This document shows positions 2,892-18,054 of a stretch of DNA of 64,000 nucleotides, one piece after another; the first letter of the stretch is position 1, and every line of letters begins with the position of its first letter. The DNA comes from Fibrobacterota bacterium. Its GTDB lineage: Bacteria > Fibrobacterota > Chitinivibrionia > Chitinivibrionales > FEN-1185. The notes under the pieces were generated by a model. That model saw nothing but the letters and a program-made list of their open reading frames with translations, did not search any database and had not been told where the DNA came from. The translations under genes were made by a program, and so were the position numbers. The stretch lies in the NCBI GenBank assembly GCA_003165595.1, contig PLWQ01000040.1:62001-126000 (forward strand), written 5' to 3'.

Positions 2892-3122
2892 AAGGCCCTC
2901 CTTTTGCAAATAATGTGTATGGAACATGTTCATCGGCATCCCTTTTTCACGTCATTGGACCGCAGCTTTCCCGCGGCTGTTACAAACCGCTGCACGGCAT
3001 CAGGTTACAGGTGCTAAGCAAGCAAAGGTTAAGCAAGAATTTTCCTGTGAGCGCGCATAGTGCGGTTATTGAGGCGATTTTCGCCATCTGCGGCAAGCCC
3101 ACTAAAGGATCCGACAACTGTG

Positions 3123-3150
3123 TAAAGTTTCAAGCAAGCAAAGCCGATAC
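3123..3150 (+). promoter_or_regulatory. Sigma-28-like promoter of the first MDISQ gene
   Basis: TAAAGTTT at 3123-3130 matches the FliA/SigD -35 consensus exactly. After 12 nt, GCCGATAC at 3143-3150 matches the -10 element in 7 of 8 bases. Counted as TAAA-N16-GCCGATAC it lies at the long end of the SigD spacing. The start codon lies 33 nt downstream, after a strong GGGAGGAG ribosome site. Confidence 0.7.
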
Positions 3151-3183
3151 ATGAAATAGTACTTATGCCAGGGAGGAGCTTCT

Positions 3184-3960
3184 ATGGACATTTCCCAGGT
3201 TTCCAACACCAGCACTGCTCTTACGGATTCGCAATGGCTCACGTCCTTCCTGGCCGATTCCCAGTCCGCAAGCACCCAGGACTCGAGCTCTCCGAGCACA
3301 TCTTCGTCCACGACTGTATCGAGCGCGGCTCAGACATCGCAAACCGCGTCTTCTAGTTCGTCAAGCACCTCCAAGACCTCCAGTGCCAGCGAGACTATTC
3401 AGGCGCTGTTGGCAAATGATAAGGCAAATACCGACCTGGCGATAATTGACTCCCTTCCTGGCGCCAGTTCCAGCGGCTCAATCTCCGACACCGGCATGCT
3501 GCAGGCTTTGCAAACCACCTTGCTGGGACTAAGCAACCTGTCGCTGTACAAGGCCGAACAGACCGCCGATGCCGGCAGCAACAGCGCCGGGATCAGCGCG
3601 CTCGAATCGCTGCAAAGCGGGTCCTCCGGAACCAGTGAGTCTTCCACGACAGACGCGCCCAGCATGTCTGGAACCGGCGCTTCGTCGCAACCGGATATTC
3701 TTGACACCCTGCTGCAACCATCCACGGACAACGGCGACCTGTCCGATGTTTTCACGTCGGCCGATGCCTCGAGCGATCTTTCGGCACTTGAAGGCTTTAC
3801 AGACACCGGTTCAACGGAAGGCACGGGCACCGATGCATCGATTCAGGCTCTGGCGAATTCCGACCCCAGCCAGACTCAAGCCGCCACCGGGTACAATTCG
3901 GACGGAACCTCCAGTTCGGATACGGGAAGTACGTCGAGTCTTTTCTCGACCACGGCGTAG
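3184..3960 (+). CDS. Ser/Thr-rich low-complexity MDISQ protein
   Basis: A 258-aa protein of unknown function. It starts MDISQVSNTSTALTDSQW and is about one third Ser and Thr, with few aromatic residues, no cysteine, no transmembrane segment and no classical signal peptide. Its first residues match those of the EF-hand protein at 5041-5610 (MDISQLTSTTAS), and both genes have sigma-28-like promoters. Composition resembles substrates of flagellar or other type III export, which carry disordered N-terminal signals. That role is inferred from promoter and composition only. The ribosome site GGGAGGAG supports the start. Confidence 0.7.
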   Translation: MDISQVSNTSTALTDSQWLTSFLADSQSASTQDSSSPSTSSSTTVSSAAQTSQTASSSSSSTSKTSSASETIQALLANDKANTDLAIIDSLPGASSSGSISDTGMLQALQTTLLGLSNLSLYKAEQTADAGSNSAGISALESLQSGSSGTSESSTTDAPSMSGTGASSQPDILDTLLQPSTDNGDLSDVFTSADASSDLSALEGFTDTGSTEGTGTDASIQALANSDPSQTQAATGYNSDGTSSSDTGSTSSLFSTTA

Positions 3961-4119
3961 CTTACTCCTGTAAGCTTCCCGGTTGTTCCCCTTGCTTTCC
4001 CGCGAGACGTTTGTCACATTTCCGACTCCCGATCGAAACGCACCCCACGGCCGCGCGGTCTAACTATTTTTAGTGCACGCCACAAGATTTGCCACCTATT
4101 TCATGTTGAGGGTACTGGT

Positions 4120-4935
4120 ATGATGAGAGGCTTCTTTGTTATTTGTGCGATTCTCCTGCCTGCTTTCCTTGCGTGCGAGCCCCCGGAAATTATCCAAAGT
4201 AAATGGACTGCTTCGGACAGTGCGCTTGCCGAGGACACAATCGGGTGGAAAGGGATCGTGCAATACCCGGATGACCCGCAATTCGGGGTAGGAGTGAGAA
4301 ACGACAACAAATTCCTTTATCTCTGCATGACTTCGTGGAAACGGGATGTAAACGGGCGCATCCTGCGGTACGGGTTTACAACTTGGTTCACCAGCAAATC
4401 CAAGAAGGGAAAACGGTTCGGCATTCATTTTCCCATTGGTCAAATGGGGAATGCCGAGGGAGCCGGCCGGCGCCACCACAGAGGCGGCAATGACCCGGGC
4501 GCCGAGCGGGCGATGATGCAAGAGTCGTTTCAGCAGATGGAACTCCTGGGCCCTGGGAAAAACGACAGCGTTCCGGTGAAGACCGCTGTTGCCGCAACCT
4601 TCGGCATTGTTGTTACCTTGCTGCCTGCCGAGGAAAAGCTCGTGTACCTGATGAAAATCCCCTTCAATTCCGATTCCATCAGCAAATATGCCATGGATAT
4701 CGGCAAGGACACGCTGATAACTACGTCGTTTGAAACCGGCGTGCCCGATCTCCCGGCCAGCGCAGGCGGTGGAGGTCAGGAGTCCTCGCCTCCCATGGGT
4801 GCTGGCGGGGGCGGCGCTCATGGCGCCGGTGGGGGTGGCATGCACGGCGGCGGCGGCCGCGAAGGTTCCTCCGGAGGGGAAATAGTCGAGCCCTTTACTG
4901 CGGCATTCGAAATCGGGCTTGCGAAAAAACCGTAA
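4120..4935 (+). CDS. Secreted Gly-rich hypothetical (possible lipoprotein)
   Basis: A 271-aa exported protein, not recognised. MMRGFFVICAILLPAFLAC forms a signal peptide ending in Cys19 with a loose lipobox (FLAC), so lipidation is possible. Residues 20-100 look like a folded beta-rich domain (FGVGVRNDNKFLYLCMTSW). An HHRGGN linker and a second structured segment follow. Residues 215-255 are a Gly/His tract (GAGGGGAHGAGGGGMHGGGG) before a short C-terminal strand. It converges on the EF-hand gene with a shared terminator between them. Confidence 0.7.
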   Translation: MMRGFFVICAILLPAFLACEPPEIIQSKWTASDSALAEDTIGWKGIVQYPDDPQFGVGVRNDNKFLYLCMTSWKRDVNGRILRYGFTTWFTSKSKKGKRFGIHFPIGQMGNAEGAGRRHHRGGNDPGAERAMMQESFQQMELLGPGKNDSVPVKTAVAATFGIVVTLLPAEEKLVYLMKIPFNSDSISKYAMDIGKDTLITTSFETGVPDLPASAGGGGQESSPPMGAGGGGAHGAGGGGMHGGGGREGSSGGEIVEPFTAAFEIGLAKKP

Positions 4936-4983
4936 GACTGGCGGGGCGGATCATGCGCACCGCGGATTGAACCGGGCCTTCAA

Positions 4984-5017
4984 ATGAGAAAAGGGAAGCG
5001 TTCGCTTCCCTTTCTCA
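4984..5017. terminator. Bidirectional terminator between convergent genes
   Basis: A near-perfect inverted repeat (ATGAGAAA-AGGGAAGC with GCTTCCCTTTCTCAT, one bulged A, GTTC loop) lies between the stops of the Gly-rich protein and the EF-hand protein. A-rich and T-rich arms make it usable from both sides. Confidence 0.75.
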
Positions 5018-5040
5018 TGTAATCGCTTTGGCAGTATGAG

Positions 5041-5610
5041 CTAGGCCGTTACGGAAAACGTACTCTGCATCTCGGTCATGCTGATCGTTGCCTGCCCGCC
5101 GTAGGTAAGCCCCAGGTTGTTCGCCGAACTTGCGCCCGTGCCGCTTGCGGCCAGGTTGCTGAAGAAAGACGTAAGCTCATCCTTGGAAATGCTGCCGTCG
5201 CCATTCGTGTCCATCGCCTTGAAAATCGCATCGAGTTGCGAAGTCCCCTGTGTGGAGGATGACGAACCAGTCTGCTGCGGGTTGAGCGCAGAAAACAGCT
5301 GCTTGCCGATGTCGCGAAGTTCTTCGCGGATCTTCTGGCGATCATCGGACGACAACTGCGTGGCCGTTGACGTAGCACTGGTCGTGCTGGATGTACCGGC
5401 CTGGCTCAGCATCTGCTTGATGTCATCGAGTTCCTTGGTAATTGTCGAGGCTTGGTCACTGGTGAGTTTGCCTGCCTGCACGGCGCCGTTGATGGCCGAT
5501 TCCATGTCGCTGATCTGATCCGAAATGCTCTTGTGGTGATGGTGGTGGCCGCCCATCCCTTGTACGCCGGAACTGGACGCGGTGGTACTGGTGAGCTGCG
5601 AGATGTCCAT
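5041..5610 (-). CDS. EF-hand protein with MDISQ N-terminus
   Basis: A 189-aa protein. It begins MDISQLTSTTASSSG, has a poly-His patch (residues 22-26), an Ala/Ser-rich helical centre and one canonical EF-hand loop at 134-145 (DTNGDGSISKDE, with Asp1, Asn3, Asp5 and Glu12). Ca2+ binding is therefore likely. No signal peptide or membrane segment is seen. Start at 5610 is set by AAAGGGG 6 nt upstream and by the shared MDISQ motif; longer in-frame starts lack support. A sigma-28-like promoter lies at 5730-5757. Likely an exported, motility-linked calcium-binding protein, by inference. Confidence 0.75.
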   Translation of the reverse strand: MDISQLTSTTASSSGVQGMGGHHHHHKSISDQISDMESAINGAVQAGKLTSDQASTITKELDDIKQMLSQAGTSSTTSATSTATQLSSDDRQKIREELRDIGKQLFSALNPQQTGSSSSTQGTSQLDAIFKAMDTNGDGSISKDELTSFFSNLAASGTGASSANNLGLTYGGQATISMTEMQSTFSVTA

Positions 5611-5729
5611 GCTTGACCCCTTTGAGAGAATTTTGAGCTTTCTTTTCAGTCCCTTGAGTTTCCCGCGTCCTGCAAGCACCGGAGCGGAGTCTGGACGGCA
5701 ACGCATGGCGATCAGCCGGTGTATCTGTA

Positions 5730-5757
5730 GTATCGGCATAAGCAAAATTTTTCTTTA
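5730..5757 (-). promoter_or_regulatory. Sigma-28-like promoter of the EF-hand gene
   Basis: On the minus strand TAAAGAAA (5757-5750) is followed after 12 nt by GCCGATAC (5737-5730). The -10 box and spacer length equal those upstream of the first MDISQ gene. It overlaps a TAAGCAAAA/TTTTGCTTA inverted repeat (5739-5747 with 5759-5767). The leader to the ATG would be about 115 nt. Confidence 0.65.
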
Positions 5758-6083
5758 GTTTTGCTTAAGGAGAAGGGATGGGACTTTGGTGCCCGCCTTC
5801 GGCGGCGGTTTTCGGGCTCGTTTCCGGTCCACCCAGTGCCTATCGGCTGGGTTAGCCGGCAATGCTCTCTGCGCACCCTGCAGTGATAAAGAATATTGGC
5901 TATGCTTCGGGGAACACCTCGAAAGGCAAGAAACCAATGTCTTGCTTGGCGAAAGTGCACTTACCGGGCGCCGGCGCTCCCGCGCTTTCGCCCAGGCACG
6001 AGCCCTTTTGGTTGTCTGCCCGCAAGTCTGATCCGTCAAAAATCACATTGCAACACTTGACTTTTCGACTTTCAGGCCCTCTC
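5758..6083. other. Gene-free stretch with several hairpins
   Basis: No credible gene here. The minus strand can form several stems, for example CCGCCGCC-GAA-GGCGG near 5800, GCAAGA/TCTTGC near 5927-5946, and GGCGAAAG/CTTTCGCC near 5949-5992. The segment 5784-5890 resembles a degenerate copy of element R1 (GCAGGGTGCGC start and GGCAC-core). No known riboswitch class could be assigned. Confidence 0.4.
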
Positions 6084-16731: not shown

Positions 16732-18054
16732 TTACCGGCCGGGTGGAGACGATGGCTGCTTTACGGATGCTGAATCGACGGGGGCCGGACGGGGTTTGGG
16801 CGCCGTGGTCGTTTGCGTGGAGATCGAATCGGCCTTTGGCTGCACCTGCGCAGCCGCCAGGCTGTCCCGCACGGGAGCGGGTGCCGGCGTTCCGATTTTT
16901 GTTTGTGAAGCCGGTACGACCGTGTCCGGCAGCGATGCCGCTGCACCTTTGGCTTCGGCGGGCTTTGCCTCCGTCGGCTTTACTTCTGCGGGTTTCACTT
17001 CCACCGGTTGCATCTCCAGCGGTTTCGTCGTCGCGGGCTGACGGGCGGCGGCCGCCTTCTTGACGGATGCCTGTTTTTGAGGCGCAAGCGTGTAGGTGAG
17101 CGCGAAGTACGGATTGAACTCGATGTCGGAGACCAGCGAGGTCACGGCGCACGCCATGTCGAACGACAGCATGGCAAAGCGCAGTCCTGCGCCCACCGAC
17201 AGGACATCGGTGTCGTAATTGAACCGTTTCCCTATTCGCAAAGCAATATACCTGGTGAGCCAGGCCTCGACGCCCACGGGAACCGAAATCCTGTTCCCCA
17301 GCTGGGACAGCGAGGTTACCTTGTACCCCACGTCGCGATACACAATATCGCCGGTAACGGTGTAGCCGATGCCGAGCAGCGTGTCCGAATATGCCGCGCC
17401 GGCGCGGCCGCTGCGCGGCAGCGGGGCACCCTCTCCGAAAGCTCGCGTTTCGTCAAGGCCGCCCGTGGTGGAACCCAGTTGGAACACGGCAGCTCCGAGC
17501 GCGAGCCTGTCGGGAATGATCCGGTAGGTGAGGCCCGCCGACACCGAGATGCCGTAAGAGGTGGACGACACGATCCTTTCCTGCATGCCGTTGAGGCAGA
17601 TCGCAAGCCCCAGGTTTTCGCCCTTGTAGCCGAAGCAGAGCGACAGGGCCGAGCCGTCGTATGAGCCGGGAACGTTGTAATCGGGACCGTTGATAAAATC
17701 GGACGGAATGATGCCGCCGATAAACTCGTTGGTGAAATTGACGGCGGCGAACATGTTGAGAAATGTCCAGGCGCCTTCGCAAAACGCAATTGTATTCTCG
17801 GAAGGGAGCGGCGCGTAGCCGAGGTTGAGGTACGGCCGCGAGTCAAGCGCGGGCGACGCGGGGTTGTACACGCCGAAACCCGCTCCGCCAAGCGCGGTTC
17901 CGGCATACCCCATGCCAACCTGCCGCGGCGACGGAAGAAAGTCGAGGAACTGGAACCCGGACATGGATGCTTCCTGGTCGGCGGCATAGACCCCGGAAAG
18001 AAGGCCGGCGGCAAGCAGGGAAAGCAGCTGAAGCGATACGATGGATTTCTTCAT
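16732..18054 (-). CDS. PorV/PorQ-like outer-membrane protein with Pro-rich tail
   Basis: A 440-aa exported protein. ATG at 18054 gives a signal peptide ending SGVYA. Residues 30-330 are a predicted beta barrel that starts with the PorV/PorQ-type entry FLDFLPSPRQVGMGYAGTA and ANPA-like YNPASPAL. Residues 335-440 form a long Pro/Lys/Ala linker with imperfect repeats (EVKPAEVKPTEAKPAEAK). Such barrels escort type IX substrates or act in surface assembly. The tail, absent from typical family members, may reach into the periplasm or bind peptidoglycan. It is the last gene of the ftsK-side cluster. Confidence 0.8.
   Translation of the reverse strand: MKKSIVSLQLLSLLAAGLLSGVYAADQEASMSGFQFLDFLPSPRQVGMGYAGTALGGAGFGVYNPASPALDSRPYLNLGYAPLPSENTIAFCEGAWTFLNMFAAVNFTNEFIGGIIPSDFINGPDYNVPGSYDGSALSLCFGYKGENLGLAICLNGMQERIVSSTSYGISVSAGLTYRIIPDRLALGAAVFQLGSTTGGLDETRAFGEGAPLPRSGRAGAAYSDTLLGIGYTVTGDIVYRDVGYKVTSLSQLGNRISVPVGVEAWLTRYIALRIGKRFNYDTDVLSVGAGLRFAMLSFDMACAVTSLVSDIEFNPYFALTYTLAPQKQASVKKAAAARQPATTKPLEMQPVEVKPAEVKPTEAKPAEAKGAAASLPDTVVPASQTKIGTPAPAPVRDSLAAAQVQPKADSISTQTTTAPKPRPAPVDSASVKQPSSPPGR

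Follow-up and report, generated by a model that had tools for sequence, protein, structure and literature searches.

In Campylobacter jejuni, the genes that depend on sigma-28 include those for non-flagellar secreted proteins (PMC4626219), and the Cia and Fed proteins leave the cell through the Campylobacter flagellum (PMC12445086; see also PMC2764114). Among the established substrates of flagellar export is the anti-sigma-28 factor FlgM (PMC2764114). The E. coli sigma-28 consensus is TAAAGTTT-n11-GCCGATAA (PMC2859248). Long held to be non-motile, the Fibrobacterota are a phylum in which flagellar motility is described as ancestral and widespread (PMC4704652).

We analyzed a 64,000-nucleotide stretch of DNA, here called the window, from a Fibrobacterota genome of 5.39 Mb that is 98% complete. 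Two of its genes encode a Ser/Thr-rich protein and an EF-hand protein. Like the FspA, Cia, and Fed proteins of C. jejuni, the window pair would be accessory proteins dispensable for flagellum assembly; secretion has been demonstrated in Campylobacter and is a prediction here. Unlike those proteins, the EF-hand/His-run and Ser-rich families are restricted to a few Fibrobacterota genomes. Like the window pair, the flgM gene of this genome (PF04316) lies behind a sigma-28-type box spaced at 12 nt, and its product also begins MDI, but neither window protein matches the FlgM domain. In related Fibrobacterota, the small proteins of the YjfB_motility family (PF14070) have MDIS or MDGI starts and sigma-28-type boxes, but the window proteins differ from them in length and body; a search prompted by the MDIS start returned zero PF14070 matches in the window proteins and in the whole genome, with B. 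subtilis YjfB detected as a control. The EF-hand protein also bears some likeness to the XopAW calcium-binding type III effectors (NCBIfam NF041410), but the match is weak, partial, and, at 26.5 bits, far under the 120-bit cut-off, and we rejected membership in that family.

Sigma-28-type promoters and the flagellar genes

The Ser/Thr-rich protein (258 aa, MDISQVSNTS...FSTTA) is encoded at 3184-3960 on the plus strand behind a GGAGG Shine-Dalgarno sequence, and its gene starts 33 nt downstream of an exact match to the sigma-28 (FliA)-type promoter, TAAAGTTT-N12-GCCGATAC, at 3123-3150 (+). The EF-hand protein (189 aa, MDISQLTST-GHHHHHKS-helices-DTNGDGSISKDE-FSVTA) is encoded at 5610-5041 on the minus strand and starts 119 nt downstream of a second exact match, TAAAGAAA-N12-GCCGATAC, at 5757-5730 (-). 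Both boxes, with their 12-nt spacers, lie where the sequence-only reading had placed them, and each gene has upstream the TAAA-N15/16-GCCGATA box by which we recognize the sigma-28 (FliA) regulon. The intervening lipoprotein-like gene (4120-4935, +) is without a sigma-28-type box and has a homologue in a genome of the same genus (G031); no sigma-70-like sites were found within 2900-5900. The window also holds a tRNA-Ser (tga) at 1381-1465 on the minus strand, and positions 5811-5884 are a dispersed repeat with at least 10 copies, at 76-84% identity, in G031.

The strict pattern TAAAG-N14..16-GCCGATA occurs twice in the window, compared with a mean of 0.01 in 300 first-order Markov shuffles, and the looser TAAA-N13..18-GCCGATA occurs three times, compared with 0.12 expected. 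The third loose box (17694-17722, +) was dropped for its spacing, with 18 bases from TAAA to GCCGATA. Across the genome, the loose pattern is at background level (22 matches, and 22 for the reversed control), so that a single match means little and its location before a gene decides. We also trained a matrix on the flagellin boxes described below and three other sigma-28-type boxes (L005, L014, and L015), allowing spacers of 10-13 nt. Over the 64 kb, it ranked the boxes of the Ser/Thr-rich gene (24.1) and the EF-hand gene (17.2) first and second, with the next site at 14.8. A covariance-style promoter model (R1) was set aside; it missed the window boxes themselves, probably because its training boxes mostly have 11-nt spacers.

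We looked for fliA and flagellar genes, whose absence would have refuted the sequence-only reading, and both are present in the genome. A single FliA (C14:228912-229589; TIGR02479, 272.8 bits, over cut-off) shares its locus with FlhF (an SRP54-type GTPase), FlhA, FlhB, FliR, FliQ, and FliO, as identified with Pfam, and with an FlhG-like ORF; FlgN is also present in the genome. Six of the eight Flagellin_N matches have a sigma-28-type box upstream: five are TAAAG-type with NCCGATA, and the sixth reads TCAAGCAACAG...GCCGATAC. The flgM gene (PF04316, 35 bits, over cut-off), whose product starts MDIKSVS, is preceded by TAAAGCGA-N12-ACCGATAA. The identical 12-nt spacing of the two window boxes, to which the sequence-only reading had drawn attention, is indeed there, but it is nothing special: flagellin and flgM boxes have 11 or 12 nt (11 in most flagellins, 12 in the flagellin L033 and in flgM), and the EF-hand paralogues also have 12.

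Three further features of these loci are recorded here as side observations. AAGCAA repeats crowd the promoters of the window pair (3010-3150 and 5730-5770) and of the EF-hand paralogues L041 and L043, at 2 to 5 per 200 nt compared with a background of 0.14. They lie immediately 5' of the -35 box or overlap it, and an inverted pair flanks the -35 box of the EF-hand promoter; possibly they form an extra operator, a pattern that we spotted after the fact. Another sigma-28-type box (L064; G000:C39:49338-49364, minus strand) has no ORF immediately downstream. The roughly 157 nt that follow it end in a 13-bp GC-rich stem and nine U, fold at -61.1 kcal/mol compared with -40.7 in shuffles (z -5.6), and have no match in Rfam, making this a candidate FliA-dependent small RNA; Campylobacter offers known examples of ncRNAs that depend on sigma-28 (PMC4626219). 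Finally, a 117-aa probable membrane protein is encoded between the FlhG-like ORF and FliA (L095:7690-8043, minus strand), a position that corresponds to that of FlgV in other phyla (PMC11607428).

Paralogues and relatives of the window pair

Both gene types have paralogues in the same genome. An EF-hand paralogue at C37:658092-658655 (L041) starts MDLTQ. Another, from C37:65674 onward (L043), starts MDPSQ and has lost its EF-hand; calcium binding is therefore dispensable in at least one copy. Just 3' of the latter lies a Ser-rich paralogue (L079; G000:C37:66305-66895) that starts MDVSQVSSSS and is without a box of its own. Given that the two gene types sit side by side at two loci, they make up a duplicated module. 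Two more tandem Ser-rich EF-hand proteins (MSVSSISGSGSFD and MSASIGSVGSFD), at G000 C25:20205-21684 (L098), are without a sigma-28 box.

All three EF-hand genes carry the box, spaced at 12 nt and followed by a leader of 116-125 nt; in the two paralogues it is degenerate in the -10 element (GCCGATTA and TCCGATCA). When their upstream regions are aligned, identity is 80-100% in the -35 block and 60-70% in the -10 block, compared with mostly 0-40% elsewhere; beyond these two blocks and the adjoining AAGCAAA, the DNA is unalignable. This conservation of blocks within otherwise unalignable DNA strongly suggests that the boxes are functional, and it is our strongest single argument.

We then compared these features across related genomes. 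In G031, the genome of the same genus, there is no FliA above cut-off, there are no boxes, and neither window family is present. A promoter profile trained without the window sites found three flagellins, an FlgM-like gene, and one small protein in G032, a genome of the same family with FliA, and returned zero matches in G031 and in G001. Since G001 is FliA-positive, the profile fails to carry over to every relative; across G000, G032, and G031, box occurrence follows the presence of FliA. Together with fliA, the export apparatus, the like boxes at flagellins and flgM, and the conservation of the paralogue boxes, the absence from G031 upholds the earlier assignment of the window pair to the sigma-28, late-flagellar class.

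Neither family is widespread. Of the order's 34 genomes with FliA, 3 have the EF-hand family, which is therefore not a core flagellar part; full-length relatives are found in 3 of 168 Fibrobacterota genomes, with the window genome counted. Among 40 genomes of the order, the Ser-rich family is in the window genome only. The EF-hand homologues are L039 and L046; a profile scan of genome contigs found one Fibrobacteres contig, belonging to the same order (L046), and a single-sequence scan of genome contigs found no EF-hand relatives. In G001, the EF-hand homologue and a short gene of the flagellar rod/hook type (PF00460 and PF06429, both over cut-off) are divergently oriented neighbors. The start of this homologue is not MDIS and it has no recognizable box upstream; in G032, the contig begins too near the gene to include such a region.

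Structure and termini of the products

Ser and Thr make up 41% of the Ser/Thr-rich protein, which matches no family in Pfam or NCBIfam, and 30% of the EF-hand protein; both are free of Cys. As the sequence-only reading had stated, neither has a hydrophobic Sec-type N-terminus: the best 15-residue hydrophobicity mean within residues 1-40 is 0.36 for the Ser/Thr-rich protein and 0.11 for the EF-hand protein. The EF-hand protein scores over cut-off for PF13202 (34.8 bits), PF00036, and PF13405 and has a canonical 12-residue calcium-binding loop, DTNGDGSISKDE; matches to its profile in the PDB were generic EF-hand proteins and were set aside. In a low-confidence model (mean pLDDT 47.9), of insufficient quality for fold comparison, residues 1-28 are without secondary structure, and helices at 29-45, 51-73, and 88-109 precede the EF-hand.

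Both products do start MDISQ (MDISQVSNTS at 3184-3960, plus strand, and MDISQLTST at 5610-5041, minus strand), and the sequence-only reading had proposed this as part of a shared N-terminal signal. The pattern ATG-GAY-NTN-WSN-CAR has 10 sites in the genome, four of which look like real starts with a ribosome-binding site: both window genes, L041, and the Ser-rich gene on C37. In a sample of 80 genes with Shine-Dalgarno sequences from 176 kb, which is enriched in flagellar loci and rests on rough gene calling, four have MD[IVLP][STK] starts, three from the Ser-rich and EF-hand families plus flgM. The start is thus common to both products, but as a specific signal it is weak: what is conserved is looser (MDISQ, MDVSQ, MDLTQ, MDPSQ, and MDISS), M1 is the sole invariant start residue of the EF-hand family, FlgM starts MDIKSVS, and the sigma-28-driven L005 and L015 start MKVD. 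Among four YjfB-family genes over cut-off in related genomes, three have a sigma-28-type box, and of these one starts MDIS and two MDGI. Judging from these sequences, a short charged-aliphatic-polar start is common across the products of the regulon, and MDISQ itself is a trait of the two families; that MDISQ is a discrete export signal is doubtful.

A second pattern lies at the other end of these proteins. Hydrophobic-[DNSE]-[VITL]-x-A closes the products of the window genes, L041, L043, L039, L046, L005, and L095:6545-6850, in the variants FSTTA, FSVTA, LNVFA, LNISA, FEVSA, VDVSA, LNITA, and VDLQA, and it is found in 6 of the 80 sampled genes, again with the enrichment in flagellar loci.

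Export and alternative roles

On the strength of these promoters and their conservation, FliA (sigma-28) very probably controls both window genes in vivo. FliA control and a flagellum-associated role, taken jointly, are the reading we favor, with moderate confidence. FliA is released once FlgM is expelled through the completed hook. FliA RNA polymerase would then transcribe the window pair alongside the flagellins and flgM, making them late-class flagellar genes, a lineage-specific duplicated pair encoding small proteins without a Sec signal. The products, one with a His run and a single canonical loop predicted to bind calcium, the other Ser/Thr-rich and probably largely disordered, would most likely exit through the flagellar type III apparatus after hook completion and FlgM expulsion. 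Export by this apparatus fits the probably disordered Ser/Thr-rich N-termini, the regulon, and the fact that neither protein has a Sec signal; we propose it tentatively, as a possibility close to evenly balanced. If it does leave the cell, the EF-hand protein might bind calcium outside, or while attached to the filament, and aid attachment to a surface or polymer; we offer this extracellular calcium-linked role as a conjecture suggested by the canonical EF loop, and not as a likely one.

The two proteins might instead depend on FliA and yet stay in the cytoplasm, perhaps regulating in response to calcium or assisting the flagellar system as chaperone-like partners. This is the less likely reading, though a substantial one; the promoter evidence is identical for both. 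YjfB, which is small and uncharacterized and falls into one sub-module with sigma-28 (PMC11607428), is perhaps such a case, and the YjfB-family genes of the order, with their MDIS or MDGI starts and sigma-28-type boxes, speak for it, as do the helical segments ahead of the EF-hand. On the other hand, very high Ser/Thr content, the lack of Cys, probably disordered tails, and rapid divergence of the paralogues are traits seen more typically in proteins that are exported or lie on the surface, and no partner domain was found.

Export could also follow another route, type I or otherwise Sec-independent, with FliA merely timing expression. Calcium-binding substrates are frequent in type I secretion, and the pattern shared by most of the C-termini is placed as a C-terminal signal might be. 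However, RTX repeats are absent, the ORF lists, read without a family scan, hold no obvious type I transporter gene beside the loci, and the same C-terminal pattern is found in the flagellar chaperone FlgN (VNTVA) and is missing from the C37 Ser-rich paralogue (QQTT), leaving this route improbable. Least likely by far, and already disfavored, is that the boxes are chance matches before genes outside the flagellar regulon: the loose pattern is no commoner genome-wide than its reversed control, but the excess of strict sites in the window, the conservation of the boxes in the paralogues, and their tracking of FliA in G000, G032, and G031 all argue against it.

Returning to the favored reading, its fullest form would be a sigma-28-driven two-protein module with MD[I/V]SQ starts that serves as a flagellum-exported, calcium-dependent filament or surface accessory, with an MD[IV]S-like start, seen in FlgM and one YjfB of the phylum too, lying within a shared late-export entry tag; that all of this holds at once is improbable. 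FliA control of the pair would in itself add two lineage-specific families to the late flagellar class of Fibrobacterota, a narrow addition to the accessory proteins co-expressed with sigma-28, and the analysis yields a sigma-28 promoter model usable in close relatives. That unrelated products of sigma-28 genes repeatedly begin with a short charged-aliphatic-polar stretch may offer a lead on flagellar export signals. If export proves true, flagellum-secreted accessory proteins, best known in Campylobacter, would reach another lineage and gain a link to calcium.
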